Below are positions 3,926 to 31,487 of a stretch of 51,275 nt of DNA, piece by piece. The notes beneath the pieces were generated by a model that worked only from the letters and a program-made list of their open reading frames with translations, had not been told where the DNA came from and made no database searches. Both the position numbers and the translations under genes were made by a program. The first letter of the stretch is position 1. The number at the start of each line of letters is the position of its first letter. Source of the DNA: a virus; IMG/VR virus record IMGVR_UViG_3300050119_000272, positions 1 through 51,275 of that record; one strand, given 5' to 3'.

Positions 3926-3926
3926 T

Positions 3927-15093: not shown

Positions 15094-16529
15094 GTGTTGA
15101 AGGCCACGATGATGTTAGCTGCGGATGTCGCCGGGGCTTCGTCTATATCTAGCGTCGCGGAGAACTCGTCGATCGCGTAGGAGGAGGCATCCCCGGAGCC
15201 CGCCGTCTGCGTGTTTGACATCTGATATGTCCCAGTGCTCCCGGTGCTCCCGGTCAGCTGGCTAAGGATCACGGCACCCAGGACATTGACACCCTGGATG
15301 GCCTGGCCTGGGGCGAGGGCGCCGCTTGAGACCGCCGTAACGGTCATTGTTGTCCCAGCTATGGATGCCGTGAAGACGGCCGCGGCGGTCCATCCCGAGG
15401 ACAGCTGGACGGAGAGTATCTGAGCCCACGGCCCCAAGGCAGCAACGGGGGCATAGAACCTGCTAGCGAATGTGGTCGCGCCGATCTTTGCCCGCGGGCC
15501 GCCGTCCCCGCCGGCGAAGGCATTCAGGATCGCGTTCCGAACCTGTGTTGCCCCGTCTGATGGGACCAGGGGGTTGTTCTGGATCACGACCAGGAAGCCT
15601 AGGGTCTCGTCATCCGGAATCTCGAACGTGATTGTGTATGACGGGTATGGCGGGTTATAGCCTGGGCTCTGGTCAGTGACTGTGACCGATGTGTTGCCGT
15701 CGTAGTATCCACAGCCCGGGGACTTCTTCGACCAGATGGCCTGGCCTATAGCCTGGGGATTGCCACCAACAACTGCGATATAGATCGAGTGGGCGGGTAT
15801 CTCGACGCCGCCTGTTGTGACAGGGCTCCCGGTGTCGTTCTGATAGCAGTATGCGTCCAGCACGCCGGGGACAGGCAGGACCGCGCCCATGATAGCCTGA
15901 ATAGTCCCCCGGGAGTTGCCAGCGACAGAGGCCTGGCGTCGTGCCTCGAACTCGGCCCTTGTCTCGGTGTCGTTTCCTACGACGCCGTCCTCAGGGTTGT
16001 TCACGGTATCCCACCCGACAACAGCCTTATAGATGGCTGTGAGGGTGTTCGCAGGGCATGGTGTCGGTCCCGGAACCGTGTTGCTGAATGAGGCCGTCAC
16101 TGTACCGCCGACCCCGATCGTGAAGTCGACGAGTGTCTGATAGATATTTCCGGATGTATCTATGGCCTGCGATCCGGCGGGGATGACCGTAGTGGCTAGG
16201 CCGACGCATGCGCACTGTACGACAGTTGGCTCGGCCGGGTCCCTCTGTATGAAATAGATGTCGCCAATGGCGTCCTGCATACGGCCCGTGGCGTATGCCG
16301 GATCGGTCTGCGTCGTGTAGAGGAGAAAGGTCTGATAGGTATACGAGATGACCGCGGCCATGCTCGTGGCCAGCTGGCCCTGAGGCGTCGACGGCGCCAT
16401 GTTCAGGTTTCCGCCGAACGCCGCATTGATGTCGGCCTGGACACCGGCCAGGATCGCGTCGTCGGAGGGTATCTGGAAACCGGTCGGGCCGAAGGTCGGC
16501 TTCGGAACATTCGTCGTGATCTGCGCCAT
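15090..16529 (-). CDS. Baseplate J-like protein with inserted repeat module
   Basis: 479 residues. Residues ~20-380 follow baseplate J (P2 gpJ / Mu gp47) architecture: TPQGQLATSMAA, GSQAIDTSGNIYQT, and a central NDTETRAEFEARRQASVAGNSRGT segment. Residues 386-445 are a copy of the repeated beta-type module found in three other virion proteins here (SIAGTTMTVTAVSSGAL...SQLTGSTGSTGTYQMS). The C-terminus then resumes with a short baseplate-like tail. It forms part of the inner baseplate wedge. Confidence 0.9.
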   Translation of the reverse strand: MAQITTNVPKPTFGPTGFQIPSDDAILAGVQADINAAFGGNLNMAPSTPQGQLATSMAAVISYTYQTFLLYTTQTDPAYATGRMQDAIGDIYFIQRDPAEPTVVQCACVGLATTVIPAGSQAIDTSGNIYQTLVDFTIGVGGTVTASFSNTVPGPTPCPANTLTAIYKAVVGWDTVNNPEDGVVGNDTETRAEFEARRQASVAGNSRGTIQAIMGAVLPVPGVLDAYCYQNDTGSPVTTGGVEIPAHSIYIAVVGGNPQAIGQAIWSKKSPGCGYYDGNTSVTVTDQSPGYNPPYPSYTITFEIPDDETLGFLVVIQNNPLVPSDGATQVRNAILNAFAGGDGGPRAKIGATTFASRFYAPVAALGPWAQILSVQLSSGWTAAAVFTASIAGTTMTVTAVSSGALAPGQAIQGVNVLGAVILSQLTGSTGSTGTYQMSNTQTAGSGDASSYAIDEFSATLDIDEAPATSAANIIVAFNT

Positions 16530-16897
16530 CAGAATGGCACCGTCGTGGTCGAGCCGTCAGAGGTCGTAAGGCTTACCCTGCCGGATAAGGTCCTGTTCAC
16601 GACGGACGCTATGGTCACGACGGCGGCCGTGACGCCCGGCACGGTGAGGGCAGCCGCCGCTATCAGCGACCTCACGAGGGAGAGGGGAGGCAGACGGCCC
16701 AGTATATTCTGCCAGTACGGAACACCTAGTGTCGTATCATAATAGGCCTCGCCCTGGAAGGTCTTGATCGCACTGGCCGCGTCCTGCGCCTGCGAGTACG
16801 GGTCCGAGGCGACGGCGATGTCGCCGCCGGAGGTTACGGAGAGGTCCCACTGTTCGGTCAATAGAAGGGTGTCCATAGATCGTCCTGTGAGGTTCAT
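16529..16897 (-). CDS. Baseplate wedge protein, gp25/gpW-like
   Basis: 122 residues. AIKTFQGEAYYDTTLGVPYW is the conserved lysozyme-like-fold motif of gp25/gpW wedge proteins that start sheath polymerisation. Start 16897 overlaps the upstream stop by 4 bases. It lies directly before the J-like gene, the conserved order in contractile phages. Confidence 0.88.
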   Translation of the reverse strand: MNLTGRSMDTLLLTEQWDLSVTSGGDIAVASDPYSQAQDAASAIKTFQGEAYYDTTLGVPYWQNILGRLPPLSLVRSLIAAAALTVPGVTAAVVTIASVVNRTLSGRVSLTTSDGSTTTVPF

Positions 16898-17439
16898 AGA
16901 CCCGTGATCGACGGTATGACGATACTACACCCTGGTATATTCGCCGCTGCGTCGTTTATAGCGCTGGTCAAAGAAGCGATCTGGCTTGTCAGCTCTGTAA
17001 GCTGCGTTGCCAGTGTCGTATAAGGGATGACGTAAGGCGTCAGGAATCCAGTGATGAAATTTCCGATCCAGGTCACTGCTGCAATCGGGTTATCTGGCGG
17101 GGAGAGGAGCGCCAAGATCGGCAGTATAGCCGTTATTTGCGCGTTGACGTCATTCACCTGGTCCTGGAGCGCAGAGAATATATCATCAACCTGTGCTTGA
17201 AGCTCAGCGCAGACGGTGGCCACCCCGATCACGGATTCCAGGTTTGAGAAGTAGTCCGCATTCACCGGGCTAGACGCCCCGACGCCATTTCCACAAACAT
17301 TAGTGATGACGCCGTTCACCGCATTAACGACCTGCCCGGTCGGTGACGTGAAGCTGGCTGTTATTCCACCCGTCCCGGCAGCGAGATTGCCCGTGAACTT
17401 CGCATTAAACTTATTCAGTAGTAATGCCAATTCAGACAC
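16894..17439 (-). CDS. Hypothetical baseplate-region protein
   Basis: 181 residues. The N-terminal half is beta-rich; the C-terminal half is helical with coiled-coil character (LQAQVDDIFSALQDQVNDVN; TTLATQLTELTSQIASLTS). It sits between the spike and the gp25-like gene. It may be a baseplate component, possibly spike- or hub-associated. No family recognised. Confidence 0.65.
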   Translation of the reverse strand: MSELALLLNKFNAKFTGNLAAGTGGITASFTSPTGQVVNAVNGVITNVCGNGVGASSPVNADYFSNLESVIGVATVCAELQAQVDDIFSALQDQVNDVNAQITAILPILALLSPPDNPIAAVTWIGNFITGFLTPYVIPYTTLATQLTELTSQIASLTSAINDAAANIPGCSIVIPSITGL

Positions 17440-17448
17440 GGGGTCTCC

Positions 17449-17994
17449 TTAAACGGAAAGAATCTGTATGCCGGACGCATTCATGATGATGGTGTTGCCG
17501 TTGACATCCGCGATCGTGATGCCTGTCGGGTTTCCGTCAGAGTCGGTTGTGAACTGCACGTACTGGGTCGGGACACCGTTCAGGAAGCCGCCGAGGTAAA
17601 GGCCGTCGGCGTAGTCGTACCTGCGCGCTGAGCCCGGGTTCGACACGGCCTTATTGGCCTTTACGCTTGAGATGTCCCGCATAGCGAACACCGCCACGCC
17701 TATATCACCCTTGACGGGATCGAGTATTATAGCGCTCTTCCCGCCCTGGAGGCGCATCACCGGTATATTGTAGATGGGGCCGTGAGGGACGGCGGTGCCG
17801 TCTCCTCCCACCTGGTTCACCATCGGCTGGACCTCGACGACGGGAGGAAGAAGGCCGGCGCCGGGCGTCACGCTCTTGACTAAGACCAGCTGGGCCGTGG
17901 CTGTCCCGGCCATCAGCTGGGAGAATATGAAGGAGACGACGTTGAAATCGTCGAGCCCGTCCGTTATGCCTTTGAAGCCAGGAGCCCCGCTCAT
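17449..17994 (-). CDS. Baseplate spike, gpV/Gp138-like
   Basis: 181 residues. VVEVQPMVNQVGGDGTAVPH...IYNIPVMRLQGGKSAIILDP followed by KGDIGVAVFAMRDIS matches the OB-fold of gpV/Gp138-type spikes. The C-terminus (GITIADVNGNTIIMNASGI) resembles the beta-helical spike stem. It should form the membrane-puncturing trimer. It is coupled to the hub gene upstream. Confidence 0.85.
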   Translation of the reverse strand: MSGAPGFKGITDGLDDFNVVSFIFSQLMAGTATAQLVLVKSVTPGAGLLPPVVEVQPMVNQVGGDGTAVPHGPIYNIPVMRLQGGKSAIILDPVKGDIGVAVFAMRDISSVKANKAVSNPGSARRYDYADGLYLGGFLNGVPTQYVQFTTDSDGNPTGITIADVNGNTIIMNASGIQILSV

Positions 17995-18911
17995 GATCTG
18001 GCCAACTGGCTATTGCCGATCGCCTCGGTGAACCAGTCGCCGCCAGGCTGGAAGGCGGATAGCCTGTGCGTGAGCTGGACCACGCGCCAGAGGCCGTTGG
18101 CCGTCTCGTTGACGCTGTTCTGAACCTGGATGTTCCCGCCGAACCTTATACCTGGATTGAACTCGGTCTTGACCCCTATTTGGGCAGGACCCACGTAATA
18201 GGGGAAGCCGACCATGCCGGTGTCCGGAGAGATGAGCGGAACGAGGGTATTACGAGAACCGTCTTTCGGAAATATGGCCAGCGTGCCAGCGGCCGTGCTC
18301 GTGGGATCATCGTCGATGACCAAAAAGATGTCGGCAGCCTGGGCAGCCGCAATGGCCTGAGAACGGGCCGTGCCGGGCAGGTAGGGGCTCGAGAGAAGGA
18401 CGCCCTTAACGCCGTTGTTCTCGAACGTGTAACCCATCTGCGAGGCAAGGCTGGACATGATCGTCGCCACATCCGTTGGGCCCGTGTAACTGCTCGGGAG
18501 GATAGGCGTCAGCGCCTGGAGGAGGCCTGTCAGCGCTGTGATGTTGAAAGCGACGTCTGGAGACGCAGAGAAGTCCGGCCAGGCGTATTGTATGACCCCG
18601 GAGAAGGCGAGGGCCTGAGACCCTGAAGATGTCCCGGCCAGGACTGTGGCGATGTTCTTCTTCGTGAATGTCGGGACCTGGCCAACGGTCGACAGCTGGT
18701 TCATCAGCGAGGCCGAGAGTCCGTACACTGTGATCTGGGCCTTGTTCATCGACGGGATGCCGCTCTTGTCTATGACAGCGGTCGTGCGGTATCCCTTGAG
18801 CGTTAGGGTGTTGTCTGACGGGCTCTCCGTGAACTGCTGAGGGGCCTCGCCGTCCGGACCGGAGTCAAGTGTGACGCCGATCGTCAGGGCCGTCTGCTGG
18901 ACGTCCGCCAT
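17991..18911 (-). CDS. Baseplate hub protein (gpD-like)
   Basis: 306 residues. The pattern TLTLKGYRTTAVIDKSGIPSMNKAQITVYGL near the N-terminus and GIRFGGNIQVQNSVNETANGLWRVVQLTHRL at the C-terminus are characteristic of phage baseplate hub proteins of the P2 gpD / T4 gp27 type. It precedes the spike it is expected to hold. The start shares one base with the plug-gene stop. Confidence 0.82.
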   Translation of the reverse strand: MADVQQTALTIGVTLDSGPDGEAPQQFTESPSDNTLTLKGYRTTAVIDKSGIPSMNKAQITVYGLSASLMNQLSTVGQVPTFTKKNIATVLAGTSSGSQALAFSGVIQYAWPDFSASPDVAFNITALTGLLQALTPILPSSYTGPTDVATIMSSLASQMGYTFENNGVKGVLLSSPYLPGTARSQAIAAAQAADIFLVIDDDPTSTAAGTLAIFPKDGSRNTLVPLISPDTGMVGFPYYVGPAQIGVKTEFNPGIRFGGNIQVQNSVNETANGLWRVVQLTHRLSAFQPGGDWFTEAIGNSQLARS

Positions 18912-19231
18912 CAGTTTATAGCCGGGACGGGGTCCGAGGCTGAGAGGTACGCGAGGATGAACCTCGTCCCAAGCCCGGTAAATACAGGGTCCTCTGTCCC
19001 CTGGAGATCAGAGAATACGAGATCGCCTGCGAACCCGAGATACGCGGACCTGACTATGCGGTTCAGGTTCTCGCAGAGCACCCCATAGAGGCCTCCGTCC
19101 AGGATCGCAGGGCTGACGACGTCCATGTAGAGGCCGGACGGCTTCTGATAGATATTTAGCGCGCACTGCTGCCCGCCTAGCGTGGTAGTCAGCGTCTGTG
19201 ATGGTTTTGAGGTCAACGGGATGATCAGCAT
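18911..19231 (-). CDS. Baseplate plug-like protein
   Basis: 106 residues. The N-terminus IIPLTSKPSQTLTTTLGGQQCALNIYQ and the later SGLYMDV...GGLYGVLCENLNRIV resemble the small beta-sandwich 'plug' protein of contractile phages (as in cyanophage Pam3 gp18). It lies between the Dit-like protein and the hub, the expected place. Confidence 0.7.
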   Translation of the reverse strand: MLIIPLTSKPSQTLTTTLGGQQCALNIYQKPSGLYMDVVSPAILDGGLYGVLCENLNRIVRSAYLGFAGDLVFSDLQGTEDPVFTGLGTRFILAYLSASDPVPAIN

Positions 19232-19232
19232 G

Positions 19233-19841
19233 TCATTGAAACAGAGCCAGGGTCGGATCGTTTGGGTTCAAAAAAGAAGCGCTCTGGGACGCCGTCGGGA
19301 TCGACGGCTGCACAGGACCGTTGTTCGTCTGGCTCGCAGCTGCAGGGTTCTGGGGATTCGTTATAGGCGCGGCCCCTGAGCTCGAGGAGAACGTGGCCTG
19401 GGCGGTCGGCCTTACCTCTTCGAGCATTATCTCGACGGTCAGGAGGGTCATGCCCTCGGTGTTCGTCCTGCGATAGTTATAATCGGTCGGGTTAGCATTC
19501 GGATAAGAAACCTCACCGGCGACAGCGTTATACAATGAGATCGACGCCACGACCGAAGCGACGGTGTTCAGAAACACCTGACGGTCGTTCTCGGATCCTC
19601 CCTTCGTGAAGGTCATCTTGAAGTCGTAAGGGGTCTCAACCTTGTTGTACGAGGCGAAGGACCCAGGCTCGACCTGGTAATCCGATATGCGATACCCCTT
19701 GCGGAAGTCGACGAGGAGGCACGAGTCGCCTACGATCACAGGTTGGAGGCTCTGGTCGAAGATGCCCCACTGGGGGCCAGGGGGTTGGGGGTCGCCGCGT
19801 TCGGGCTGGCCGGCATCGTCGAGGAGCCCTGGGTCGCTCAA
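19233..19841 (-). CDS. Dit-like baseplate/tail adaptor protein
   Basis: 202 residues from a TTG overlapping the tape-measure stop (TTGA). Residues ~45-150 (FRKGYRISDYQVEPGSFASY...DRQVFLNTVASV...LLTVEIMLEEVR) follow the N-terminal domain pattern of Dit-like proteins that join tube and baseplate. The C-terminal 50 residues are low-complexity Ser/Pro/Asn. The assignment is by pattern and gene order. Confidence 0.65.
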   Translation of the reverse strand: MSDPGLLDDAGQPERGDPQPPGPQWGIFDQSLQPVIVGDSCLLVDFRKGYRISDYQVEPGSFASYNKVETPYDFKMTFTKGGSENDRQVFLNTVASVVASISLYNAVAGEVSYPNANPTDYNYRRTNTEGMTLLTVEIMLEEVRPTAQATFSSSSGAAPITNPQNPAAASQTNNGPVQPSIPTASQSASFLNPNDPTLALFQ

Positions 19842-21541
19842 TTGAGCCCCGTGTTGGCCTGGTCGGCCATCGTACTCTTCTGGAGGGCGGTCTTGATGCT
19901 GGATGCTATGCCTGGCGCGTCGGTGGCCTGCGTATGGACCTCGACAGTATCGACGTATGTTACGCTTGAACTTGAAGCCCCCGACCCGGAAGAGGCGGAG
20001 TCCTTAGCGCTAGGGGCAGGTGTGCCGGCCAGTGAATATCTTGAGGAGAGGCGCTCGGCCCTGGCAAGGTAACTCTGGGTCTCGGGGAGGAGGACAGAGA
20101 CATCGCCGCCGCTCTTATTGAATTTGTCGACGTAGCCAGGTGTGGAGTTATATCCGATCAGGATGTCGGCGATATTCCCGTTATACTTCTTCGAGAGGTC
20201 GTCCAGGATAGCCCTGGCGACCTTCTCGTTGTAGGCTGGGTCCTTAAGGCGGCTCGGGTCAAACCCGTAGGCCTTCGCTGTGGCGGGTTTGATCTGGTAC
20301 CGGCCAACCGCGCCGCCATGGGAGCCTGGGAAGGCCGGCGTAGACACAGCGTCGTCGGCACTGTTCTCGTCGCTTCTGATGAGATGGAGGAGTGCGTCCT
20401 GGTCGATGGTCTGGGCCTGAGGGGCCGGGGTTGGGAAAGTCGTCCTGGGGTCTCTACCGCCGAGGGTGTAATACCCTGAGGATGAGGATATACCGTCTGG
20501 GGCTGAATGCTCAGAGAGATACTTTGCGTTCTGCCCGCCGAGGAAAGCGCCGATACCTGCGCCGGCTATAGCGCCTGAGATGGTCCCTCCAGGACCTGCT
20601 AATGTGCCGACGACGCCTCCCACAACACCCCCGAACAGTGTGGCGATAGGACCAGTCTTACCCTGAACCCAGCCAGTTACCTGATCCAGCAAGCTATCGA
20701 CCTGCGGACGATCTTTCGTGAGGAAATCACGAGCGAGTTGGTCGACTGCCTGTCCTAGGCCTTTGAACTTCTCCTGTAGGTCCCTGGCTGCATCGGCGGC
20801 ACCCTTGTTGGCTATACCGAGCCGGATCGACTCCTGAAGGTCTATATTATACTGCTTCTGACCCTTCAGGAGCTCGCTGAGGGTCGCGTTATCCGTGATG
20901 CCGATGCCGCCTAGAATGGCGGATACCTTCGCAGGATCGTTCTGGTTCTTTCCAGCGTACGCGGCTGCCTTCTCAAGGACGTCAAATGGCGTGTCCTGAC
21001 CAGAGTACCCGATGGTACCCAGCGATATTTTGAACTGGTCTGACGCCTGTCCAAATAGCTTATATTGCTCAAGGGCAGATACAAACCCTTGGACCTGAGC
21101 TGTCGCCGCCGCAGCGTCACCACCGTTCCGGGCAATTAGGTTTCCGAAAGCCGAGAGCTTCTCAAGATCAACACCGGCTACGGCCGCTGCACGGCCTAGG
21201 TCAGCCGTCGCGTTCGTGACGCCGACGACCTCTCCTTTGACGGCCTCGAACCCGACGACCGCTGCGGCGAGGGCGATCACCTTGTTCTGTATCTGGCCGA
21301 AGAACTCAGCGGCCTGGGCCCCTCGTGACTGAAGCTCTTTAGCGGTCCCAGCGGCATCGTCCCTCAGACCCTTCATGGCCTGAGAGGATTTCCCAGCGCT
21401 AGACGATACAGCTTCGGCTGTCTGTCCGGCTGCGTCCTTGACGTTTTGGTAGGCCTTCTCCGCGCCCTGGGCGTCTTTGTCCAAGCCTGAGGTGTCGAAG
21501 CCAAGCGAGACAACGAGGGCGTCGACGACGGTCGTTCCTAT
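19838..21541 (-). CDS. Tail tape measure protein with lysozyme-like (SLT) domain, apparent ATA start
   Basis: 567 residues if started at ATA 21541. That start includes TTVVDALVVSLGFDTSG, the usual N-terminus of tape measure proteins; the first canonical start, TTG 21484, would remove it. AGGAG stands 6 bases before the ATA, and ATA overlaps the chaperone TAG. The middle is helical, with a glycine-rich membrane-like stretch (ATLFGGVVGGVVGTLAG). A C-terminal transglycosylase-like domain follows, with GGAVGRYQIKPATAKAYGFDP and an upstream SDENSADD acidic cluster. It sets tail length and should aid DNA entry through peptidoglycan. Confidence 0.85.
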   Translation of the reverse strand: MGTTVVDALVVSLGFDTSGLDKDAQGAEKAYQNVKDAAGQTAEAVSSSAGKSSQAMKGLRDDAAGTAKELQSRGAQAAEFFGQIQNKVIALAAAVVGFEAVKGEVVGVTNATADLGRAAAVAGVDLEKLSAFGNLIARNGGDAAAATAQVQGFVSALEQYKLFGQASDQFKISLGTIGYSGQDTPFDVLEKAAAYAGKNQNDPAKVSAILGGIGITDNATLSELLKGQKQYNIDLQESIRLGIANKGAADAARDLQEKFKGLGQAVDQLARDFLTKDRPQVDSLLDQVTGWVQGKTGPIATLFGGVVGGVVGTLAGPGGTISGAIAGAGIGAFLGGQNAKYLSEHSAPDGISSSSGYYTLGGRDPRTTFPTPAPQAQTIDQDALLHLIRSDENSADDAVSTPAFPGSHGGAVGRYQIKPATAKAYGFDPSRLKDPAYNEKVARAILDDLSKKYNGNIADILIGYNSTPGYVDKFNKSGGDVSVLLPETQSYLARAERLSSRYSLAGTPAPSAKDSASSGSGASSSSVTYVDTVEVHTQATDAPGIASSIKTALQKSTMADQANTGLN

Positions 21542-22130: not shown

Positions 22131-22131
22131 A

Positions 22132-22557: not shown

Positions 22558-22577
22558 GTCTGATGTCCTTTTCCGGG

Positions 22578-24569
22578 TTACTGGACGACGATGGAGGCCA
22601 TTCTGATGGCCTGGACGGAGCCTCCGTCCACGTACCAGAACGTGATCGGGGGCGAAGAGCGGCTCTGCCTCGAGGTGGGAGACGCGATACCGATCTGGAG
22701 ATACCATCCACGGGTCTGGAGGACCCCCGCGATGTTGGCGCCGGCGTCCTGGTTGACCTCAGCGATCTGGGATGACGAGAGGGTCACGTTCTCGGTGATG
22801 GCGCCGAAGTCCAGCATCTGCTGGATAGTGTCCGCCAGCGCGGTCTCGACCATGGAGTTGCCGACGGGGTTGTAAGAGATCGAGTTCGTGTTCTGGAGTA
22901 GCTCCATGAGGTCCAGCTGGAACTGGTTCCGCATGTATATCTGGTTGAAGTAGCTGTCCGCCCACTGGAACGGCCCGGTGACCGTGCCTCGCTGATACCC
23001 GGTGAAGGCCTGATTCGCCGTGGCGAAGGCCCCGTAGTAGTTATAGCCGTTGCCGAAGCTGCCGGCGACCAGGGGGGAGCCGCCCAGGTTGGCCGCGATT
23101 TGCTCGTTCACGACGCTCGGCGCCAGCCCGGCCTGCGAGCGTCCGGCGAGCGTGGTACGGCCGGCCATCGCGGAGAAGTTCAGCGACGCACCGTAGGCGC
23201 AGATGCCCTGGGCCAGGTTCAGGTCGGAGCCCTCGTAGACCAGGATCGTGCCGGAGTCCCCGTTGTTCTTCAGGATGTAGCCGAGGGACCCTGTCGCGGG
23301 GACGCTCTCCGTCGGGGTCACGTCCGTGTCCCAGCAGACGTACGCGAAGCGGTTGTTGTAGGCGTTCTTCCACGCCGCGAAGGCCTGCTTCTGCGTGTTG
23401 CCCGACCCGTTGTCCGGGTCGAAGGCGGTCATGTACGACGCCCAGTTCTGGGTGATGCCGAAGGCCGACGACATCACGACGGACGGCGTCATGGCCGCGG
23501 AGCCCTGACTCAGGTAGGCGCCGGTCGCGGAGGTGAGGAGGAGGGGATCCGCCAGGGTACCGGTGGCGAAGGCGGAGGTCGACGGCGCGCCGGTGATCCC
23601 GGACGTAATCACGAAGGCCCCGGAGAGGCTGTCGAACGTGACGACGGGCGCGGTGGCCGTGCCGGTCATGGATTCGCTGGCCACGCTCTGCTGAGCACCG
23701 CTGATGCGGTACGTTCCGATCGTGCCCGCCGTGCCGGTGAGCTGCGAGGTGATCACCGGCGCTCCGGTCACGCCAGACCCAACGACGGTCTGGCCGACCG
23801 CGATGTTGTGGTCCGTGTTCACGGTCACGTCGAGGATGGTCGAGGTCGATGTGCAGCTCGCGGAGCTCGCGGTGTTGGCTGCGCTGAGGTTGTAGGTGCC
23901 GGCGCCGCCAGGCGTGCCGCCGGCGTCCTGCGACACGATCGTGGTGGACGCCGGGATGCCGGTGCCCGAGACGGTGTCCCCGACGGAGATGAGGCCCGTG
24001 ACGGCTGTGACCACGAGCTTCGTGCTCGGGCTTCCCGCCGTCGCGGTGAAGGAGGCGCCGAGGGACGCGGTGAAGTTGGCCTCGGTTGGATCGGTGAAGG
24101 CTGCGGAGATGCCGGCCGCGGCCGCCGAATAGCTGCTGTAGCCGGAGAGATTGATCGAAGAGATGACGTGCGTGTAGCCGTCCATGACCACGGTCAGGGA
24201 GCCGCTGAGGGCCTGCATCTGGGCGACAGTGTTGGACCCGGCGAAGTTGCCGCCCCACACGTAGGCCGAGACGGCCGAGACAGCGTCCTGGACGAACAGC
24301 AGGTTTCCGGGGACCTGGGTGGCGTTGTTGATCCCGGCGAAGTATCCGGACCCGAGGCTGGCCCCGCCGTTCGCGATGATGTCCTCCTGGGACCCGGCGC
24401 CGAAGAAGCTCGTGACCGCCGGCCCCGACGAGAAGGAGGCCACGGTGCCGATCGGCACGCGGACGCTCTTGGTCGCGACCATCCCGTTCAGGCTGAAGGG
24501 GCTCCCGGCCGCCGGAAGAACACCGGGGATAACCTGGACGAGGAAGTCTGCGGGGATGCTGCCGTTCAT
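22578..24569 (-). CDS. Tail sheath protein (DUF3383 family) with two inserted repeat modules
   Basis: 663 residues. The N-terminus (IPADFLVQVIPGVLPAAG...KSVRVPIGTVASFSS) and C-terminal half (RFAYVCWDTD, YNYYGAFATANQAFTGYQRG, QLDLMELLQNTNSISYNPVG) match DUF3383 contractile-sheath proteins. Residues ~174-237 and 239-303 are two tandem copies of the repeated beta-type module (LVVTAVTGLISVGDTVSGTG...; SQLTGTAGTIGTYRISGAQQ). They sit in an outward-facing position between sheath domains, so they probably decorate the tail surface. Confidence 0.9.
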   Translation of the reverse strand: MNGSIPADFLVQVIPGVLPAAGSPFSLNGMVATKSVRVPIGTVASFSSGPAVTSFFGAGSQEDIIANGGASLGSGYFAGINNATQVPGNLLFVQDAVSAVSAYVWGGNFAGSNTVAQMQALSGSLTVVMDGYTHVISSINLSGYSSYSAAAAGISAAFTDPTEANFTASLGASFTATAGSPSTKLVVTAVTGLISVGDTVSGTGIPASTTIVSQDAGGTPGGAGTYNLSAANTASSASCTSTSTILDVTVNTDHNIAVGQTVVGSGVTGAPVITSQLTGTAGTIGTYRISGAQQSVASESMTGTATAPVVTFDSLSGAFVITSGITGAPSTSAFATGTLADPLLLTSATGAYLSQGSAAMTPSVVMSSAFGITQNWASYMTAFDPDNGSGNTQKQAFAAWKNAYNNRFAYVCWDTDVTPTESVPATGSLGYILKNNGDSGTILVYEGSDLNLAQGICAYGASLNFSAMAGRTTLAGRSQAGLAPSVVNEQIAANLGGSPLVAGSFGNGYNYYGAFATANQAFTGYQRGTVTGPFQWADSYFNQIYMRNQFQLDLMELLQNTNSISYNPVGNSMVETALADTIQQMLDFGAITENVTLSSSQIAEVNQDAGANIAGVLQTRGWYLQIGIASPTSRQSRSSPPITFWYVDGGSVQAIRMASIVVQ

Positions 24570-24581
24570 AAATTCTCTCCT

Positions 24582-25517
24582 TTAAGAGGGATACTGAGCC
24601 TCGACCTCGATGAGGCCGACGACCAAAGCGTCTGCGAACTGCTGCGGCACGACCACCGTCTGGTTCGCCTGGAGGCGCGCATCTAGGCGCCATCTATCTT
24701 CATATTGCTGCTCTCCGTCTACGAACGGCCCCTGTGTAGGATCGTCGGCGTAGAGGGGTGCCACGGGGAGGCCAGAGGCCTGGAGGAGCGTGACGCCGTA
24801 TTGGTCACGGAAGGCTGTCGAGATGACCTGGGAATAATCTGCGGCGTTTGGGCCGAAGCAGTCGATCTGAAATTTCCACTCCGAGTTCTGGGTCATGGAC
24901 AACGTGCCGCACGCCATACCTTCTTCGGAGACCGTCTGAGATACGCTGACGGAATAGACCCCTGGGCCCCCACCTCCGGGGACGCCGTTTATAATCGTCC
25001 CATCAGCCACGCCAACGCCGAAGACCTGGGCCCCTTCGATGAGCTCGCCGTAAGCGACCTCCGACACCGCCATGACGCTGCCGGCGATCGAAGCCTGGAA
25101 ATAACAATCGACGAGGTCGTCGACATTGGTCTCGAGACGGTCGCGGCCCATAGGCGTCACGATCACGAAGTCCATCGCCGGAGGCTGGGCCACCCGGTTC
25201 CCCTGACCCTTCAGGATCGGGACGCCTGTGTTCAGGGGGACGCCTGAGACGGTTTGGGGTACGCTGACCTCGTAGGTCCCGAGACCTCCAGGAGAACCAG
25301 TCAGCTGAGAGATCACCTCTGTCTGAGGAGAGACCCCGCTCCCGAAGACCATGTCGCCGACGGCCAGGAGGCCGGTCGTCAGCTTCGTCACGGTCATGAC
25401 GTTCCCTGAGATGGATCCGGAGAACATCGCGCTGCCCTGAGGCAGGACCTGCTGGAGGAAGTTCACCCGAAGCGCCTGCAGTATCTGGGACTGCGTTGGC
25501 GAGAGGGAGATGATCAT
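24582..25517 (-). CDS. Neck/tail terminator-like protein (LIC_12616/gp12-like) with two repeat modules
   Basis: 311 residues. The scaffold FRDQYGVTLLQASGLPVAPLYADDPTQG...GEQQYEDRWRLDARLQANQ in the C-terminal third matches phage neck terminator proteins. Copies of the repeated module occupy residues 32-96 and 140-204, each starting GSI/ASI-x-G and ending VSVPQTV / VSVSQTV. With them the protein is roughly twice the length of module-free relatives (family knowledge). It should cap the tail tube. Confidence 0.75.
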   Translation of the reverse strand: MIISLSPTQSQILQALRVNFLQQVLPQGSAMFSGSISGNVMTVTKLTTGLLAVGDMVFGSGVSPQTEVISQLTGSPGGLGTYEVSVPQTVSGVPLNTGVPILKGQGNRVAQPPAMDFVIVTPMGRDRLETNVDDLVDCYFQASIAGSVMAVSEVAYGELIEGAQVFGVGVADGTIINGVPGGGGPGVYSVSVSQTVSEEGMACGTLSMTQNSEWKFQIDCFGPNAADYSQVISTAFRDQYGVTLLQASGLPVAPLYADDPTQGPFVDGEQQYEDRWRLDARLQANQTVVVPQQFADALVVGLIEVEAQYPS

Positions 25518-26098
25518 TACATATACAGGACGGTTAGGTTCGCCGCCCCGCCGCCGTCGGCCGCGACTGCGATGATGCCGTTCTGTACCTGGACGCCGAT
25601 CGGGAGGCTCGCCTGCGCGACGGTGGAGAAGGTGCCGATCGGGTTTGAGACATCGTAGGCGGTCTGGACGCCTGACTGGGAGCCAGAGGTGTTGATTGAA
25701 TTTGTGCCGGCGATGGCATGGGCTTTTGTGTCGGCCAGCAAGAAGCTATTCGCGGCGAGATCGAGCGAGCTTACGTAGTAGGTAGTGCCCGCCGTGAGGC
25801 CTGTCGGCAGGGCTCCGGTGGTCTGGAGCTGGACAGCGGCGCCTGCCGCAAGGTTGTGGGCAGGCCACGAGACCGCACCCGGGCTTGCCAGGGTGATCGT
25901 GACCGGAGACGACGTGCCGTCGTACAGCTCGATGGTCGATGTGGTGCCGATAGTGTTCACGACTAACCCTACGAGGACACCTAGGCCGGTCTTGATCTGC
26001 TTATAGATGCTTGTGGCCAGGTTCGCAAAGTTGCTTCCGCTCGGGAAGGTTGGAAGTGCGTTGGCTAGGGCCTGGGGAGTGAGCTGGGCGGGGATCAT
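25517..26098 (-). CDS. Virion protein with a tail-type beta module
   Basis: 193 residues. Residues ~75-150 (VSWPAHNLAAGAAVQLQTTG, LPTGLTAGTTYYV, NSFLLADTKAHAIAG) form a second kind of phage repeat domain, frequent in structural proteins as 'HGL-x-aGd-x-V...LPtGl..g..YYV'. The C-terminus (GTFSTVAQASLPIGVQVQNGIIAVAADGG) is unlike known enzymes. It sits among neck genes and is likely a virion decoration. Confidence 0.65.
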   Translation of the reverse strand: MIPAQLTPQALANALPTFPSGSNFANLATSIYKQIKTGLGVLVGLVVNTIGTTSTIELYDGTSSPVTITLASPGAVSWPAHNLAAGAAVQLQTTGALPTGLTAGTTYYVSSLDLAANSFLLADTKAHAIAGTNSINTSGSQSGVQTAYDVSNPIGTFSTVAQASLPIGVQVQNGIIAVAADGGGAANLTVLYM

Positions 26099-26108
26099 CG
26101 GGTTTCCT

Positions 26109-26480: not shown

Positions 26481-26483
26481 GGC

Positions 26484-27140
26484 TTAAAGCTCGACGGCCG
26501 AGACGCTGACGTTTGAGAGGCCGCCCGAAGAGGCTGTCGCCAAGGACTTGGCGGCGAGGTCTAGCCAGTAGGCGGTGTTGAGCGTCAAGCCGGTGATGAC
26601 GGCCGAGGTGGAGAAGGGCACCGCGACGTCGGCTGCGGTGACGATCGCCGGATTGGTGTATGACTGGACCGTGCCGACCTGGGTGCCGGCCAGGGCCGCC
26701 GCATTTGCGGGCGCCGCTCCGGTGCCGTATGAGAGCTGGTGCTCGATGCCGTCGCCGGCGGTCACGGTCGAAGCGATGACCGTGCCGGAGATGGTGAGGA
26801 GGACCTTGCCAGAACGGACCGGGGTGATGGAGCCGGCAAGCCCCTGCATGAAGTAAGCCGAGGTGCTGGATGGCGCAACGGGCGCGGCGACAGCTTTCTG
26901 ATCGGTGGCACCGACGACGAAGTTTGCTTCGCTGGCGATCTGTTCCCAGGCGGCAGCGCCGACGGCCGAGCTGGTGCAGATGTATACCGCAGAGCCGTAA
27001 AGCCAGATCGAGCCGGGCTCATAGCCTTGCGTTGAGTCGTTGCCCACAACGGGGGTGCCGGTCGCGACGAGATTATTGATGACCGCGAAGTTCGCGGGGC
27101 GGGAGCCTTGGTTCGAGTCCCAAAGGGTCAGCTTCGACAT
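26484..27140 (-). CDS. Probable virion decoration protein
   Basis: 218 residues. The N-terminus (GYEPGSIWLYGSAVYICTSS..AAWEQI) resembles short modules in fibre-type proteins. The rest is a beta-sandwich-like, Ser/Thr/Ala-rich region, with a fibronectin-like stretch (ITGLTLNTAYWLDLAAKSLA). It lies between neck genes. A surface or neck appendage is plausible; no firm family. Confidence 0.6.
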   Translation of the reverse strand: MSKLTLWDSNQGSRPANFAVINNLVATGTPVVGNDSTQGYEPGSIWLYGSAVYICTSSAVGAAAWEQIASEANFVVGATDQKAVAAPVAPSSTSAYFMQGLAGSITPVRSGKVLLTISGTVIASTVTAGDGIEHQLSYGTGAAPANAAALAGTQVGTVQSYTNPAIVTAADVAVPFSTSAVITGLTLNTAYWLDLAAKSLATASSGGLSNVSVSAVEL

Positions 27141-27271
27141 TGCGTTCTCCGGTTAGAGGGGTTCATTCGGTCTACAGAGCCTCCCCTTCAAGGAGGCGGA
27201 AATCTTTGCCTTCGTCTCTTCCGATCTCTTCTTTCCGGACCAGTGTCCTACCCTTCCGGTCAGAGCAGAGC

Positions 27272-27778
27272 TTATGTTTTTCCTATGCTCCTCCGAGAGA
27301 ATGTACGGCCGCGCATCTTTTTCTTCGCAGCCTCGGTATGCTTCCAGCCCTTCTGGGTACGAATCTTTTCACGGGTATCTTCAGAGACAAGACGGCCCCG
27401 CAACTTCTCCGACTTCCTTCTCCTTGTTTCTTCAGAATCTTTTGTACCAAGCATTCTCTTGCTTTGCCTGGCTTTAGATTCCTCAGACCACTTCAAACCT
27501 AGCGTGTTAGAAGCGCAAGGGCTCAAATTATATTCAGGTCTAAACCTGTCTATAACAAGCTGCTCGTACAAGAGAAGGTCGACCCTCCTGCATACGATCA
27601 ATTTTAAAAAAGATAGGCGGCCGTTGTATTTGTTCCAGGCGTTTTGGAGATACCTATTCTTATGATTCCCACGGGAGAGGTCCCTCTTATGAAGGCTCCA
27701 TCTCTTTTCAAAATCAACGGTGCTTCCGATATAAAACTTTCCCGAAGGAGAGGTTATCGAATAGATACCACTGATCAC
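27272..27778 (-). CDS. GIY-YIG homing endonuclease with NUMOD3-type repeats
   Basis: 168 residues. GIYSITSPSGKFYIGST begins the GIY-YIG core, with R26-region DFEKRWSLH and YEQLVIDRF as further motifs. The tail has repeated KARQSKRML/EETRRRKSEKLRG/EDTREKIRTQ-type segments, like NUMOD3 DNA-binding motifs. It is clearly less GC-rich than its neighbours and basic, and its start overlaps the upstream stop (ATGA). A free-standing homing endonuclease inserted among neck genes fits; its cleavage site is unknown. Confidence 0.9.
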   Translation of the reverse strand: MISGIYSITSPSGKFYIGSTVDFEKRWSLHKRDLSRGNHKNRYLQNAWNKYNGRLSFLKLIVCRRVDLLLYEQLVIDRFRPEYNLSPCASNTLGLKWSEESKARQSKRMLGTKDSEETRRRKSEKLRGRLVSEDTREKIRTQKGWKHTEAAKKKMRGRTFSRRSIGKT

Positions 27779-28260
27779 TTCATCTCCACCTCGTGGTCGA
27801 CGGAGTTTAGCATGTGTGCGCTATCTATTAAAGGCTTATCGAACCCTTTCCTGGCGATCGTCGAAGGGGCCAGGGGCGGGGACGTGAGGTCGCGTATGGA
27901 CTGCTGGAGTTGGCCGCCTACTGCAGCGCCTACGACCGTGAGGGTCCTCTCGACATCATAGTTGTTCCTCTTCAGCTGCAGGGCCATCGCGTCGGGCCAC
28001 TCCGGCTTCTTCGCTGCTATCATCCTACGGAAGAACGGCCTGGGGAGGACAAAGTATGACCCCTCGTCGTCGCCTTTCTTGACCGTGTGGCCGTATTCGT
28101 TGAGCGAAGCTACCTCGGCGACGCTCTGTCCCGTTTCTGGATAAGTGGCGCCCTCGAGGAAGCCGACGCGCACGCTTCCGGATCGGATCTTGCCGGCGAA
28201 GGCCTTTATCGCAGGGCCGAACTTGTCGCCGCCGCTCACGCCCTTCGTCACGTCAGCCAC
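27775..28260 (-). CDS. Tail completion/neck protein, HK97 gp10-like
   Basis: 161 residues from the GTG at 28260, overlapping the DUF4054 stop by 8 bases; an upstream in-frame GTG at 28290 would add 10 residues and overlap more. VRVGFLEGATYPETGQ, VASLNEYGH and LPRPFFRRMI are the typical motifs of HK97 gp10-like/virion morphogenesis proteins joining head and tail. Its stop is overlapped by the homing endonuclease start. Confidence 0.78.
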   Translation of the reverse strand: MADVTKGVSGGDKFGPAIKAFAGKIRSGSVRVGFLEGATYPETGQSVAEVASLNEYGHTVKKGDDEGSYFVLPRPFFRRMIAAKKPEWPDAMALQLKRNNYDVERTLTVVGAAVGGQLQQSIRDLTSPPLAPSTIARKGFDKPLIDSAHMLNSVDHEVEMK

Positions 28261-28729
28261 TTCCGTTAGGATAAAGCCATGGAAGCCCACCGGACGAGGC
28301 CGGCCCGGCGCCGAAGGTGCTCTGCGGCTTGTAGTGCGAGAGGCGGTAGGGGAGCGAGGCCTGCCAGTAAGCCGCGCCGTATTTCGTTTGTTGGTACCAC
28401 TGCGCCGTGCCGGGAGGATAGTCGTTCACGAAGGTCGCAGATACCGACCCCTGGGTCGCGCTGCCGATCCGCCCCGGCGGCGTCGCAGAGCTCGCCCCGG
28501 ACGCCGTCGTAGGAGAGTTCAGCTGTGCGATGTGAGCCGTTAGCATGTACAGCATCATCGTCAGGGCCTGGACCTGGCGGACGACGTTCAGATTGTTTGC
28601 GCAGTAGAGCGTTGCCTCCGTGAAGTACATCTGGGCCGACCCGGAGGACACGGCGGCGAACTCCGGATAGCGTGCGACCCAGTTGTCATAATTGAAGACG
28701 ACTGGGGGCACGCATCCGGGGCCGCTCAT
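28253..28729 (-). CDS. Head-tail adaptor (DUF4054-like)
   Basis: 158 residues. VVFNYDNWVARYPEFAAVS, YFTEATLYCANN and MMLYMLTAHIAQLNSP match DUF4054 phage proteins, which form part of the connector between portal and tail. TGATG coupling to the upstream gene. Confidence 0.8.
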   Translation of the reverse strand: MSGPGCVPPVVFNYDNWVARYPEFAAVSSGSAQMYFTEATLYCANNLNVVRQVQALTMMLYMLTAHIAQLNSPTTASGASSATPPGRIGSATQGSVSATFVNDYPPGTAQWYQQTKYGAAYWQASLPYRLSHYKPQSTFGAGPASSGGLPWLYPNGSG

Positions 28730-29259
28730 CAGGCTGCCTGGTTCGACGGCTGCTCGTCGGCCACGACGACCGCGTCGACGAACTTGCCATCGCGGTTGCG
28801 TTTCTTGTCGACACGGGGATCGCTCCTGCGCAGGAGGGGCTCGAGGCCGCTGCGGGTGGCTTCATGGTCCTTGGCGAAGGCGGCGGCATCCTCACCGCTG
28901 GCGTAAGCGCGGATCAGGTGGTTGAGGACCACGGGGGAGTCCTTGTGCTGCTTCAGCCAGGTCTCCCACACCTCTTTCGGGACGCCGTGGGTAAGGGCAT
29001 AGCCGGCCACGATGGGGTAATTCGGGGTCGCGCCCGCCGGCACCCGTGTGCCGTGGACTACGTATTGCTGTCCGGTGCTTCGCCAGACAGCGACCTTCCT
29101 CATGCCGCCGCCGAGGACAGGCTCCGAGCCGGCCTCCTCACGGAAACACTCGAGGACAAGACCCGTCGGGTGCTTTAGGGCGACGGTGACCGTCTCGGTC
29201 CCGGTGGCGGGTTTCGGCGTTGCTTTTGCCGGGGCATCCGGCTTAGTCGTTTCGGTCAT
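28729..29259 (-). CDS. Hypothetical head-region protein
   Basis: 176 residues from the ATG at 29259 behind GGAGAGACC; a longer frame to 29313 would run into the terminator. After a low-complexity Lys/Pro/Thr N-terminus, a compact domain follows (VALKHPTGLVLECFREE...GYALTHGVPKEVWETWLKQH). C-terminal residues are charged. Located between capsid and connector genes; function unknown. Confidence 0.65.
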   Translation of the reverse strand: MTETTKPDAPAKATPKPATGTETVTVALKHPTGLVLECFREEAGSEPVLGGGMRKVAVWRSTGQQYVVHGTRVPAGATPNYPIVAGYALTHGVPKEVWETWLKQHKDSPVVLNHLIRAYASGEDAAAFAKDHEATRSGLEPLLRRSDPRVDKKRNRDGKFVDAVVVADEQPSNQAA

Positions 29260-29311
29260 GGTCTCTCCGTTTGGTGTGCGGTTTCGAATCCCGGCGTTGT
29301 GCAGGGCTCTC

Positions 29312-29350
29312 ATAAAAAAGCAACGGACTCGCGTCCGCTGCTTTTTCTTA
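29312..29350 (-). terminator. Rho-independent terminator after the capsid gene
   Basis: On the minus strand AGCAGCGGAC-GCGA-GTCCGTTGCT forms a 10-bp stem (one G-U pair) followed by TTTTTT. It lies 19 bases after the capsid gene and should give more capsid mRNA than downstream connector mRNA. Confidence 0.85.
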
Positions 29351-29368
29351 GTCTTGTCGTCAGGAGGC

Positions 29369-30481
29369 TCAGACCCCGAGCATGCTCGCGATGGCGAACG
29401 GCTGCTTGATAATCGCGCCCCAGGTGCCGCCGGTGAGCTTCTGGCGGTAGGAGGAAGCGCCGACCACGATCTTGTGGGCGCGCATCTTCTCGCCGAAGGA
29501 GACCGACGCCGTCTTCTGACCTTCGACCGCTGCGGCGATCAGCTGGATCAAGTTGCCGGCCACGAGCCCCTGGTTGTTCGAGGCGGTCTGCTGCCCGTAC
29601 TGCACCGCGGTCTTCACGGTCAGGTTCGGGAAGTTCTTCTTCAGCAGGTCCTCGACATTCACCGCGAAGGCATTCGTGGTGGTCAGGGCCATCGCGACGG
29701 CGGGAGACATCGCAAGGGTCATCTTCGACTTGGCGTCGATGAGGCCATTGCTCTGGTTCACCGCGGCCAGGAAGACAGCCTGGATGTCGGAGAAGATTTC
29801 GTTCGCAGACGCCACGACGGCGCCATTCACGATCCACTTGGTACCGCCATAGGCCTTCGGCGCTGGGGACAGCGACGCCGGCAGGTTGGGGTCGTTGAGC
29901 GCCCCGTAGGTCTGCAGGTTGACGACGCCGAACGCGTACGTGAGGTTCTCGTACTTGTTCATCGTCAGGGACGCGGCGCGGTCCTGCTCGGAGACCCACG
30001 ACAGCTTCGCCAGGCCCATGCGTTCCAGCTCCAGCTCTCCGTATTCCTTGAAGGTCTGGTACAGGTACTGCTGGCGCTGGGGCCAGTTGACATTGGCGCC
30101 GGCGCTGCCGTTCTCGTTGTAGTCGCCGTACGAGCTCACCTCGCCGGTGTGCTCGACCATCGGGAAGAAGGCCGTCTGTGTGGTCCAGTCGCCCTTTTTC
30201 TCTTCGGTAAAGATGTCCGCCATCATATTGGCGGCGAACAGCACGTCGACGGTCTCTGGGTCGACCCAGTTGGTGAGGAAGGCTGGAACAGCCGAGTTGG
30301 CCGCGGTGCTCAGCGAAGGCTGGGCGTCCATCGCCAGCCTCGCCTGTCGGAAGTCCTGCTTGAAGTGCTCCGGGAGGTATCCCTTCGCGTCGGGCATGAT
30401 CATGCCCTTGAGGGCCAGCACCGGGGCGTCTTCACGCCACGCCGCTTGTCCCTCGGAGAGAGTCCTGCAACGAAAAGTCAT
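29369..30481 (-). CDS. Major capsid protein (DUF2184 family)
   Basis: 370 residues behind AAAGGAGACGACCAGA. The protein carries the family signatures FLTNWVDPETVDVLF, MMADIFTEEKKGDW, the FPMVEHTGEVSSYGDY stretch and a C-terminal ASSYRQKLTGGTWGAIIKQP, all typical of DUF2184 HK97-fold capsid proteins. A cement protein and a protease/scaffold gene are immediately upstream and a terminator lies downstream, supporting the assignment. Confidence 0.92.
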   Translation of the reverse strand: MTFRCRTLSEGQAAWREDAPVLALKGMIMPDAKGYLPEHFKQDFRQARLAMDAQPSLSTAANSAVPAFLTNWVDPETVDVLFAANMMADIFTEEKKGDWTTQTAFFPMVEHTGEVSSYGDYNENGSAGANVNWPQRQQYLYQTFKEYGELELERMGLAKLSWVSEQDRAASLTMNKYENLTYAFGVVNLQTYGALNDPNLPASLSPAPKAYGGTKWIVNGAVVASANEIFSDIQAVFLAAVNQSNGLIDAKSKMTLAMSPAVAMALTTTNAFAVNVEDLLKKNFPNLTVKTAVQYGQQTASNNQGLVAGNLIQLIAAAVEGQKTASVSFGEKMRAHKIVVGASSYRQKLTGGTWGAIIKQPFAIASMLGV

Positions 30482-30527
30482 TCTGGTCGTCTCCTTTTAG
30501 AGAGGGTCAGGGGGTTGGTGGCTGGGG

Positions 30528-31487
30528 TCAGCCGAGGGATTTGTCGGACATCTTCACGACCTCGCCGGGGAGCCCCGTCGAGCGCGCGAACCACTTGGTC
30601 TCGATCGTGTTGCTGCCCACGATGGTCGCCGAGCTGACCACGGTGTTGTTGTTCACGACCGAGGTGCCGCTGGAGCCGCCCGCGCCGGTTGCGAGGTAGG
30701 TGATCACGGTCGGGGGAACAAGCACGACGCCCGTGCCGGTCAGGACCTGGCCAACGGCGAACGCGCCGGTGACCGTGCCGTTGGACAGGAGGCCGTAGGC
30801 GCCCGCGATGGTCTGCGGGGTCGAGATGGACTGCTCGCCGGTGTCGATCAGGTAGGTGCCGGCGCCGAACGCAGTACCGGTGAGCTGCTTGACCACGGTG
30901 CCGACCACACCCGAGCTGGTGATGTAAGAGCCGGGATAGATGTCCCCAGTCACCACGCCGCCGGAGGTGTTCAGGATATTCCCGACCAGCGTGCTGAGGG
31001 TGGCGCTCCAGGTCTCGGCCGCGATCGAGGCCGTGGCGCCGGAGCCGCCACCGGAAACCGTTCCGGGGGCTGCGAAGGAGACGCTGCCGTCGTTGATGTT
31101 GGCGAAGGCCTTCTGGCCGTTCTGCGCCTGGGTAGCGCCGTTGTTGTAGGTCCAGAAGCCGCCGCCGATCATCAACGTGACCCCGAAGCCAGACTGGATC
31201 GTCAGGCCCGAAGAGGCCAGGTAGTTGACGATGAGGCCCTGCTGCTCGCGGTGGATGAAGCCCGATGGCGCGCCAAGGCCGAAGCTGTTGACGAGCGACG
31301 GCGTGCCATCCCCGTCGGGCGGAAAGGTCGCCCAGGCGAAGTGGCCAACCGTGCAGCCATTTGCGCCCGCCACAAGCCCGCCGGGGCCTGCGTCAAAGCT
31401 GTACCTGGGGTTCTTGTCGCAGTAGTCGCCGATCACTCCCGGGGCCTGCGAGACATTGACCTGGGACTGGAAATCGCCTTGATTCAT
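30528..31487 (-). CDS. Capsid cement protein (gp24-like) with two repeat modules
   Basis: 319 residues. VNVSQAPGVIGDYCDKNP and DAGPGGLVAGANGCTVGHFAW match structural cement proteins of the gp24 type that stabilise capsids. Residues ~158-225 and 229-288 are copies of the repeated beta-type module (VVKQLTGTAFGAGTYLI, GTVTGAFAVGQVLTGTGVVL), one of four virion proteins here with it. The extension is expected to project from the capsid surface. Confidence 0.8.
   Translation of the reverse strand: MNQGDFQSQVNVSQAPGVIGDYCDKNPRYSFDAGPGGLVAGANGCTVGHFAWATFPPDGDGTPSLVNSFGLGAPSGFIHREQQGLIVNYLASSGLTIQSGFGVTLMIGGGFWTYNNGATQAQNGQKAFANINDGSVSFAAPGTVSGGGSGATASIAAETWSATLSTLVGNILNTSGGVVTGDIYPGSYITSSGVVGTVVKQLTGTAFGAGTYLIDTGEQSISTPQTIAGAYGLLSNGTVTGAFAVGQVLTGTGVVLVPPTVITYLATGAGGSSGTSVVNNNTVVSSATIVGSNTIETKWFARSTGLPGEVVKMSDKSLG

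Follow-up and report, generated by a model that had tools for sequence, protein, structure and literature searches.

The DNA considered here, hereafter the window, is a whole IMG/VR virus record (IMGVR_UViG_3300050119_000272) of 51,275 bases that carries a contractile-tail structural gene cluster on its minus strand. Four proteins of this cluster share a small protein module in seven copies: one in a baseplate J-type protein, two in tandem in the tail sheath, two at separate places in the neck terminator, and two in tandem in a capsid decoration (cement) protein. An earlier note, made from the sequence by itself, had drawn attention to these copies as an unnamed, mobile module of about 65 residues. 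All seven copies were confirmed in frame at the positions that it gave, as were the reading frames of the four genes, each of which is a single continuous frame. The features are listed below; copies were identified with profile hidden Markov models (HMMs), of which profile A2 was built without the cement copies and found 6 of the 7 window copies at E ≤ 1e-3.

15090 to 16529, minus strand: baseplate wedge J-type protein, 479 amino acids, single module near the C-terminus (PF04865, E 3e-10; phrog_6, E 3e-54)
15177 to 15389, minus strand: baseplate J module, residues ~384-452 (HMMs; profile A2, E 8.4e-24)
22578 to 24569, minus strand: tail sheath, 663 amino acids (DUF3383, E 5e-90; phrog_205; sheath profile A3 against E217 gp31, E 2e-53)
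23835 to 24053, minus strand: sheath tandem copy 1, inserted after residue 171 (HMMs; profile A2, E 5.1e-17)
23649 to 23855, minus strand: sheath tandem copy 2, 61 residues past copy 1 (HMMs; profile A2, E 9.2e-18)
24582 to 25517, minus strand: neck / tail terminator protein, 311 amino acids, two separate modules (PF23961, E 4e-20; phrog_1876, E 2e-37; NF047498)
25224 to 25436, minus strand: neck site 1 module, after residue ~31 (HMMs; profile A2, E 1.5e-26; AlphaFold predicted local distance difference test, pLDDT, 93)
24897 to 25109, minus strand: neck site 2 module, at scaffold residue ~72 (HMMs; profile A2, E 7.7e-21)
30528 to 31487, minus strand: capsid decoration (cement) protein, 319 amino acids, two tandem modules in a hairpin near the C-terminus (phrog_2122 'minor head protein', E 9e-34; predicted fold)
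30810 to 31001, minus strand: cement tandem copy 1 (HMMs; virus-locus HMM, E 2e-6)
30618 to 30812, minus strand: cement tandem copy 2, the most divergent of the seven (13.6 bits against 9.9 for the best shuffle; virus-locus HMM, E 3e-8)

The decoration gene lies between the genes for the protease (31533-33623) and the major head protein (29369-30481). At 663 amino acids the window sheath compares with ~490-516 in cultured relatives, and the baseplate J-type protein has solved relatives that include E217 gp44.

The copies are rich in glycine, threonine and serine, and some pairs within the window score poorly against one another (neck copy 2 against cement copy 2, for instance, gives z 0.9), as would be expected if their resemblance were mere beta-prone composition. 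In a leave-one-out comparison, six copies were used as an HMM to score the seventh against 5000 shuffles of that seventh copy, and every copy exceeded all 5000 of its own shuffles. The margin over the best shuffle was large for five copies (48.3 versus 12.9 bits for baseplate J, 35.6 versus 10.4 and 42.1 versus 10.9 for the sheath, 64.0 versus 14.9 and 23.9 versus 11.5 for the neck), moderate for cement copy 1 (24.0 versus 16.5) and small for cement copy 2, the weakest of the seven. The HMM of all seven copies, run on the six-frame translation of the window, recovered exactly those seven and found no eighth copy in any frame (best other E 0.27), and an HMM retrained on virus loci recovered all seven with domain E values of 2e-23 to 2e-6. 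Since none of the composition-keeping shuffles reached any copy, since an iterated HMM matched none of 17,322 reversed open reading frames (ORFs), and since the predicted fold described below is confident, a Gly/Thr/Ser-rich composition artefact was rejected and is in our view scarcely credible. The homology of the seven copies claimed in the earlier note is thus borne out, all of them aligning above their shuffles.

The module alone matched no model in Pfam-A (six sequences: the consensus and five members) or NCBIfam (three sequences), so that it is indeed unnamed there; with the same six sequences no immunoglobulin (Ig) family appeared in Pfam up to E 10, the sole match being TSCPD at E 0.19. 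Pfam matches of the whole window proteins fell on their scaffold parts, and a PDB sequence search with the module gave no relative and three chance-level rows. Two PHROG profiles hold it as one segment, ~397-470 of 595 positions in PHROG 21413 and ~550-624 of 896 in PHROG 38233. No paper describing it was found in the open-licence literature, a scope outside which most subscription papers fall; its undescribed status rests on Pfam, NCBIfam, PHROG and that literature, and a subscription paper may already describe it. We conclude that the module is a real, unnamed protein domain.

Structure prediction, which had been proposed as a check, gave a confident small all-beta fold: the AlphaFold model computed on the 90-row alignment A2 has a mean pLDDT of 93.0 and a predicted TM score (pTM) of 0.81; its two long strands cover residues 5-23 and 55-73. 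Of the PDB chains, Foldseek ranked chain 1 of 8eci from Arthrobacter phage Bridgette closest (E 0.048, TM score 0.62 by query), and VIA-align scored that chain at Z 6.8 over 69 residues. VIA-align also matched chain ranges of IF2, EF-Tu, SelB and eEF1A, which we take to be domain 2 of these factors, at Z 5.7-7.1 over ~70 residues; with Z below 8 these values indicate a resemblance in arrangement rather than ancestry, and in Foldseek the translation-factor chains had E values of at least 1.5 among the matches listed. The other structural matches listed were mostly further barrels, with no Ig chain near the top, which by itself excludes nothing. In the model of the cement protein, too, residues 157-231 matched EF-Tu-type barrels.

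The length of ~65 residues given in the earlier note turned out to be the mean of two situations, as an isolated copy spans ~70 residues and a tandem repeat ~61, because neighbouring copies overlap. Among 107 adjacent tandem pairs, the median distance between equivalent tyrosines was 61 residues, with 60 and 61 the commonest values, and many second copies matched the profile only from position ~10-17 onward. The cement model has one long predicted strand, 225-240, at the junction of its two modules. On the simplest reading of the models, tandem neighbours would share a long strand and so form a stiff chain of beads. A second spacing class of exactly 71 residues (20 of the 107 pairs), set beside the class at ~60-61, suggests two modes of joining units.

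To follow the module beyond the window, virus loci were collected with two degenerate DNA patterns for its turn motif, each with at least 120 viral-contig matches, which gave 237 loci. The iterated HMM located 462 copies, spread over 304 ORFs, on 229 of these loci among the matches listed, and a search of whole records (the window plus 46 picked for having a locus) found 1-10 copies in all 47. One of the patterns, run across 84,980 bacterial and archaeal species genomes, picked out 50 stretches, 47 with HMM-confirmed modules; the remaining three, all from Curtobacterium, gave no HMM match. In 5 of 12 bacterial genomes (G047, G048, G050, G052 and G058) all matches lay in one stretch of 15-20 kilobases with several module proteins. 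Matches were restricted to one protein in G051, G054, G055 and G057 and were spread over two contigs in G053 and three short contigs in G049; G056 gave none. Between portal and tail fibre the G048 stretch and the window are collinear: the best matches of 20 window proteins follow one another there in the window's order (an additional match is to an opposite-strand frame), and we therefore interpret such bacterial stretches as prophages of the same kind as the window. The module-bearing proteins of Rhizobium prophages, of which R. freirei PRF 81 (L289) has one, make up almost the same set as in the window, and at the protease-to-major-capsid locus the G048 prophage has a protein of a different family, phrog_3645, which likewise bears a module. 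Prevalence among hosts was 2 of 289 genomes in the class of G048 and 4 of 100 in its genus, G048 being included in both counts. Overall, module matches were nearly confined to viral or prophage DNA.

Eight of eight whole records of cultured relatives of the scaffold families gave no module match at E ≤ 0.1; a ninth record searched with them, MW202520, is an environmental genome that had been chosen for having the module. The module is therefore not essential. Of 50,697 isolate phage records, tblastn matched one at E ≤ 1e-3 when queried with single modules and five at E ≤ 1, Sinorhizobium phages among them, when queried with a tandem; the low-complexity filter of BLAST makes this search insensitive, so that these counts do not prove rarity among isolates. 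A scan for related loci queried with the window sheath found no relative.

After the modules had been masked, module-bearing ORFs of the virus loci with at least 80 amino acids of scaffold fell into 59 clusters among the matches listed, and representatives of 20 of the 59 were scanned against PHROG. The named clusters were tail fibre (phrog_9851, 39 members), minor head / cement (phrog_2122, 27), sheath (phrog_205, 24), head closure Hc3 (phrog_578, 22), neck (phrog_1876, 22), baseplate J (phrog_6, 17) and a head protein (phrog_1912, 4), and other scanned clusters, two of them large (31 and 17 members), had no PHROG family name. Proteins from the bacterial loci add phrog_49 head decoration, phrog_687, phrog_3645 and a fibre. 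At Foldseek E < 1e-3 the module model also had structural matches in predicted viral proteins of the HK97-type capsid, pectate-lyase, P22 gp10 and lambda Stf-type fibre kinds, and in two collagen-repeat proteins from Indivirus ILV1, a giant virus (BFVD A0A1V0SCQ2, E 3.8e-5, 43% identity; A0A1V0SDM6, E 8.8e-4, 32% identity). In the loci, which were picked for the module so that the shares are not prevalences, it was present in 24 of 33 sheaths, 22 of 29 neck proteins, 28 of 30 cement proteins and 17 of 18 baseplate J proteins. The earlier note's view that the module is inserted in head, neck, tail and baseplate proteins with unrelated scaffolds therefore holds across these families, whose cultured relatives do without the module; taken with the site alignments and trees described next, this makes the module an optional add-on common to unrelated virion proteins.

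Several single cases are worth recording beside this range. The Indivirus matches may reflect a transfer between bacterial and protist viruses. Locus L245 (989-1858, minus strand) encodes a phrog_49 head decoration protein with a module in its N-terminal part. Some module-bearing ORFs are giant: one of 4384 residues with seven modules (L155:2-13153, plus strand), and others of 5376 (G019), 5376 (G021) and 5191 residues (G033).

Scaffold alignments, in which partial ORFs and some of the alignments themselves yield stray positions, placed the modules at few, fixed points: one place after residue ~172 in the sheath, with 0-3 copies; ~26-31 and ~70-72 in the neck scaffold; ~158 in the cement protein; and ~237, ~343 and ~384 in baseplate J. 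Scaffold trees, from which identical and short rows had been dropped, required 5 presence/absence changes and at least 12 changes in copy number for the sheath (42 rows), and 8 and at least 13, respectively, for the neck (42 rows, poorly resolved). Two Rhizobium prophage neck proteins form a natural empty/filled pair: 192 of 245 shared residues are identical, and they differ by a single in-frame block of 207 base pairs that is exactly one module.

Such a clean presence/absence could be the mark of a mobile DNA element able to enter genes without disturbing their frame, like the palindromic elements of Rickettsia. However, both edges of the 207-base-pair block carry only a GGC codon in common, with no longer duplication (one pair, for which no separate search for terminal inverted repeats was made), the sites are few and fixed in each scaffold, and each window copy finds its best match in another virus. 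We consider such an element very improbable. Best matches in other viruses also mean that the seven did not arise by recent copying from one another, and recent amplification within the window genome was rejected on this ground.

The relations among modules point to residence with occasional exchange. Modules of different scaffold clusters reach 86% pairwise identity, part of which may be drift toward the consensus. In a set of 398 near-full-length modules, of which 301 could be assigned to nine labelled groups of scaffolds, and with pairs of at least 90% identity left out, the closest module elsewhere belonged to the same scaffold family for 227 of the 301, which points to old residents with occasional exchange at the sites rather than to an active mobile element. 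Within the window, baseplate J, sheath copy 1, neck copy 1 and cement copy 1 had their best match in another scaffold type, and sheath copy 2, neck copy 2 and cement copy 2 in the same type. Nearest matches in the same genome on another scaffold numbered 0 among the 301 against 0.6 expected by chance, which is a weak test. On a tree of the 232 modules that remained of the 301 once near-copies were dropped, the scaffold label changed 63 times (least possible 8, shuffled mean 157), with strongly supported branches forcing just 3 changes for cement, 3 for sheath, 2 for baseplate J and 2 for Hc3. Each site thus shows retention plus some exchange. The "mobile domain" of the earlier note accordingly stands in one sense, exchange over evolution (trees, empty/filled pair, cross-scaffold identity), and lacks support in the other, an active mobile element or recent copying.

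The modules are under purifying selection. The ratio of non-synonymous to synonymous polymorphism (pN/pS), taken from eight comparisons of genes of Rhizobiales prophages, was 0.05-0.39 for the module and 0.14-0.28 for the scaffold; synonymous divergence (dS) is high to saturated, so that these figures are rough, but they still argue against free drift. Selection on amino acids near the scaffold level also speaks against regarding the modules as tolerated passengers or shields, that is, harmless folders or surface masks with no specific partner, and the strong bias toward virion proteins is unexpected of a random passenger. That conservation is mostly structural and that cultured relatives have no module would both suit such an account, which we judge distinctly unlikely, though a pure shield may still apply.

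Where the modules sit on the particle could be traced for two of the four proteins. The sheath profile matched E217 gp31 (8fvg_A) at E 2.1e-53 over profile positions 26-491 and Pa193 gp32 at E 2e-55, and the insertion point, read from the profile alignment, corresponds to what we read as a helix-to-strand loop at E217 gp31 ~149-158. Residues 91-210 of Pa193 gp32 are named a flexible domain outside the core in PMC11042391, and additional sheath domains are placed away from the tube in a survey (PMC9230969). The cement protein has no PDB relative by sequence; its model (mean pLDDT 85.6) matched the decoration proteins of Pa193 (gp25 kind; 9b40_K, Z 15.0 over 156 residues), E217 (gp24 kind; 8frs_f, Z 14.1 over 157), FCWL1 (Z 15.0) and T1 (Z 15.0). 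Each match starts at model residue 1 or 6 and ends at 316, with only 148-157 of 319 residues aligned, which indicates that the modules are an insertion within the decoration-protein fold. The name "capsid cement", a guess from the phrog_2122 label, has hereby gained the backing of a predicted fold match to the Pa193 and E217 proteins. These mapped sites, the sheath flexible domain and the decoration-protein hairpin, support a location in accessory or outer parts of virion proteins. For the neck protein, PDB sequences gave only weak tail-terminator matches (E 0.018 and 0.072). E217 has 180 decoration and 204 sheath copies (PMC10329688); if the window virus is like E217, several hundred modules would coat each particle, and the cover of the whole virion supposed earlier may follow.

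A location on decoration protein and sheath also suits a different role, in which copies on neighbouring subunits touch and stabilise the capsid, neck and sheath lattices, with adhesion playing no part. Two window copies are on a decoration protein of the kind that cages the capsid (PMC10329688); the closest Foldseek match is a chain of Bridgette, a phage whose capsid cement protein is mentioned in PMC13033339; and stabilisation has been proposed for additional sheath domains (PMC9230969). Against this, 0-3 copies at one site among relatives are hard to fit with precise lattice contacts, and modules also occur in tail fibre proteins. We regard such cementing as unlikely, although it is the main rival, with passengers or shields next.

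The reading we favour, with a probability of about 50%, takes the module for an accessory domain that folds on its own into a small beta barrel of ~70 residues, serves as an optional, exchangeable bead on outer structural proteins and would promote adhesion by avidity. Its homology, few fixed sites, 0-3 copies, empty/filled pair, partial exchange, purifying selection and near-confinement to viral and prophage DNA are observed; the barrel is a prediction. In the proposed mechanism, several hundred beads would project outward from the assembled virion and act by avidity, through weak binding of envelope or matrix polysaccharide that would keep the particle near its host or habitat. Since tandem copies overlap in the modelled long strand, extra units would lengthen a stiff spike. 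For a domain that is optional, tandem, tolerant of number, selected and shared by outer proteins all the way between head and fibre, the role of an avidity-type accessory surface domain is the most fitting, the variable copy number arguing against exact lattice contacts, and its presence in tail fibre proteins fits adhesion. Several points weigh against this reading: placement on solved structures extends to the sheath and cement sites only; cultured members of the same scaffold families manage without the module; its conservation falls largely on turn glycines and core residues, which do not hint at any ligand; and the module tree was built on few columns and leaves 108 of 229 inner branches open. 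A wider version, which we put forward tentatively, makes the module a general-purpose virion surface domain of uncultured and temperate phages, which would be the barrel analogue of phage Ig-like domains, could sit on nearly any outer protein, would form a polysaccharide avidity coat of several hundred copies, and would also occur in the collagen-like proteins of Indivirus.

Some neighbouring genes deserve mention. A GIY-YIG endonuclease ORF (27272-27778, minus strand; PF01541, E 6e-10), probably a homing endonuclease, lies within the virion cluster near the neck genes, and the head maturation protease (DUF2213; 31533-33623, minus strand) carries an N-terminal NUDIX hydrolase domain (E 5e-20) in a single frame of 696 residues. 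Beside the neck gene, a 193-residue protein (25517-26098, minus strand) with a weak phrog_967 match has a different motif, PAHNLAAG...TGALPTGLTAGTTYYV, presumably one frequent in phage fibre proteins, and may represent a second type of add-on. Elsewhere, in Acetobacter phage phiAO1 (LC644971.1, locus 2173-4876), genes annotated as sulfurtransferase, peroxiredoxin and Cu-Zn superoxide dismutase adjoin the terminase.

Although common in environmental phages, the domain has no Pfam or NCBIfam model and is invisible to annotation, which labels its proteins sheath, neck or fibre and overlooks the bead. As a second case of an exchangeable virion domain it opens to experiment the general question of why phages decorate all parts of a particle with one small domain. 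Its role can be tested before the window virus is cultured, since cultured Rhizobium strains harbour prophages with almost the same set of bead-bearing proteins and the natural empty/filled pair occurs among Rhizobium prophages.

Among known systems, PHROG 21413 and PHROG 38233 contain the module, but one is unannotated, the other is labelled 'tail fiber protein', and neither defines it as a domain. The barrel of EF-Tu, IF2 and SelB domain 2 is similar to the predicted fold, also within the cement model; at Z < 8 this may be just a common arrangement, and there is no sequence relation and no GTPase context. The best PDB Foldseek match, Bridgette 8eci chain 1 (124 residues), is probably a capsid cement protein, and the Bridgette head bears dimeric cement proteins (PMC13033339). 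It is a separate protein rather than an inserted module, and at E 0.048 and 14-16% identity a common origin with the module is not shown. The closest parallel in kind is offered by the phage Ig-like domains (Hoc and the capsid, tail and sheath add-ons), reportedly studied by Fraser and colleagues, which like the module are exchangeable beta domains that unrelated virion proteins carry as an option, frequently as tandem units, and that are dispensable in relatives. Some of these Ig-like domains are appended by programmed frameshift. Unlike the Ig-like add-ons, the module lies inside single ORFs and has ~70 residues with overlapping tandem units; it also has another predicted fold and no Ig match by sequence among the six sequences. 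As the fold comparison, unproven as it is, points elsewhere as well, we do not class it as Ig-like. Weak binding of surface carbohydrates has been proposed for the Ig-like domains, as quoted in PMC9230969. What is new here is the family, its predicted fold, its overlapping tandem build and the breadth of its scaffolds; the kind of thing it represents, an exchangeable accessory virion domain, is known, and the module provides a second case of it, with a predicted fold other than that of the Ig-like domains.

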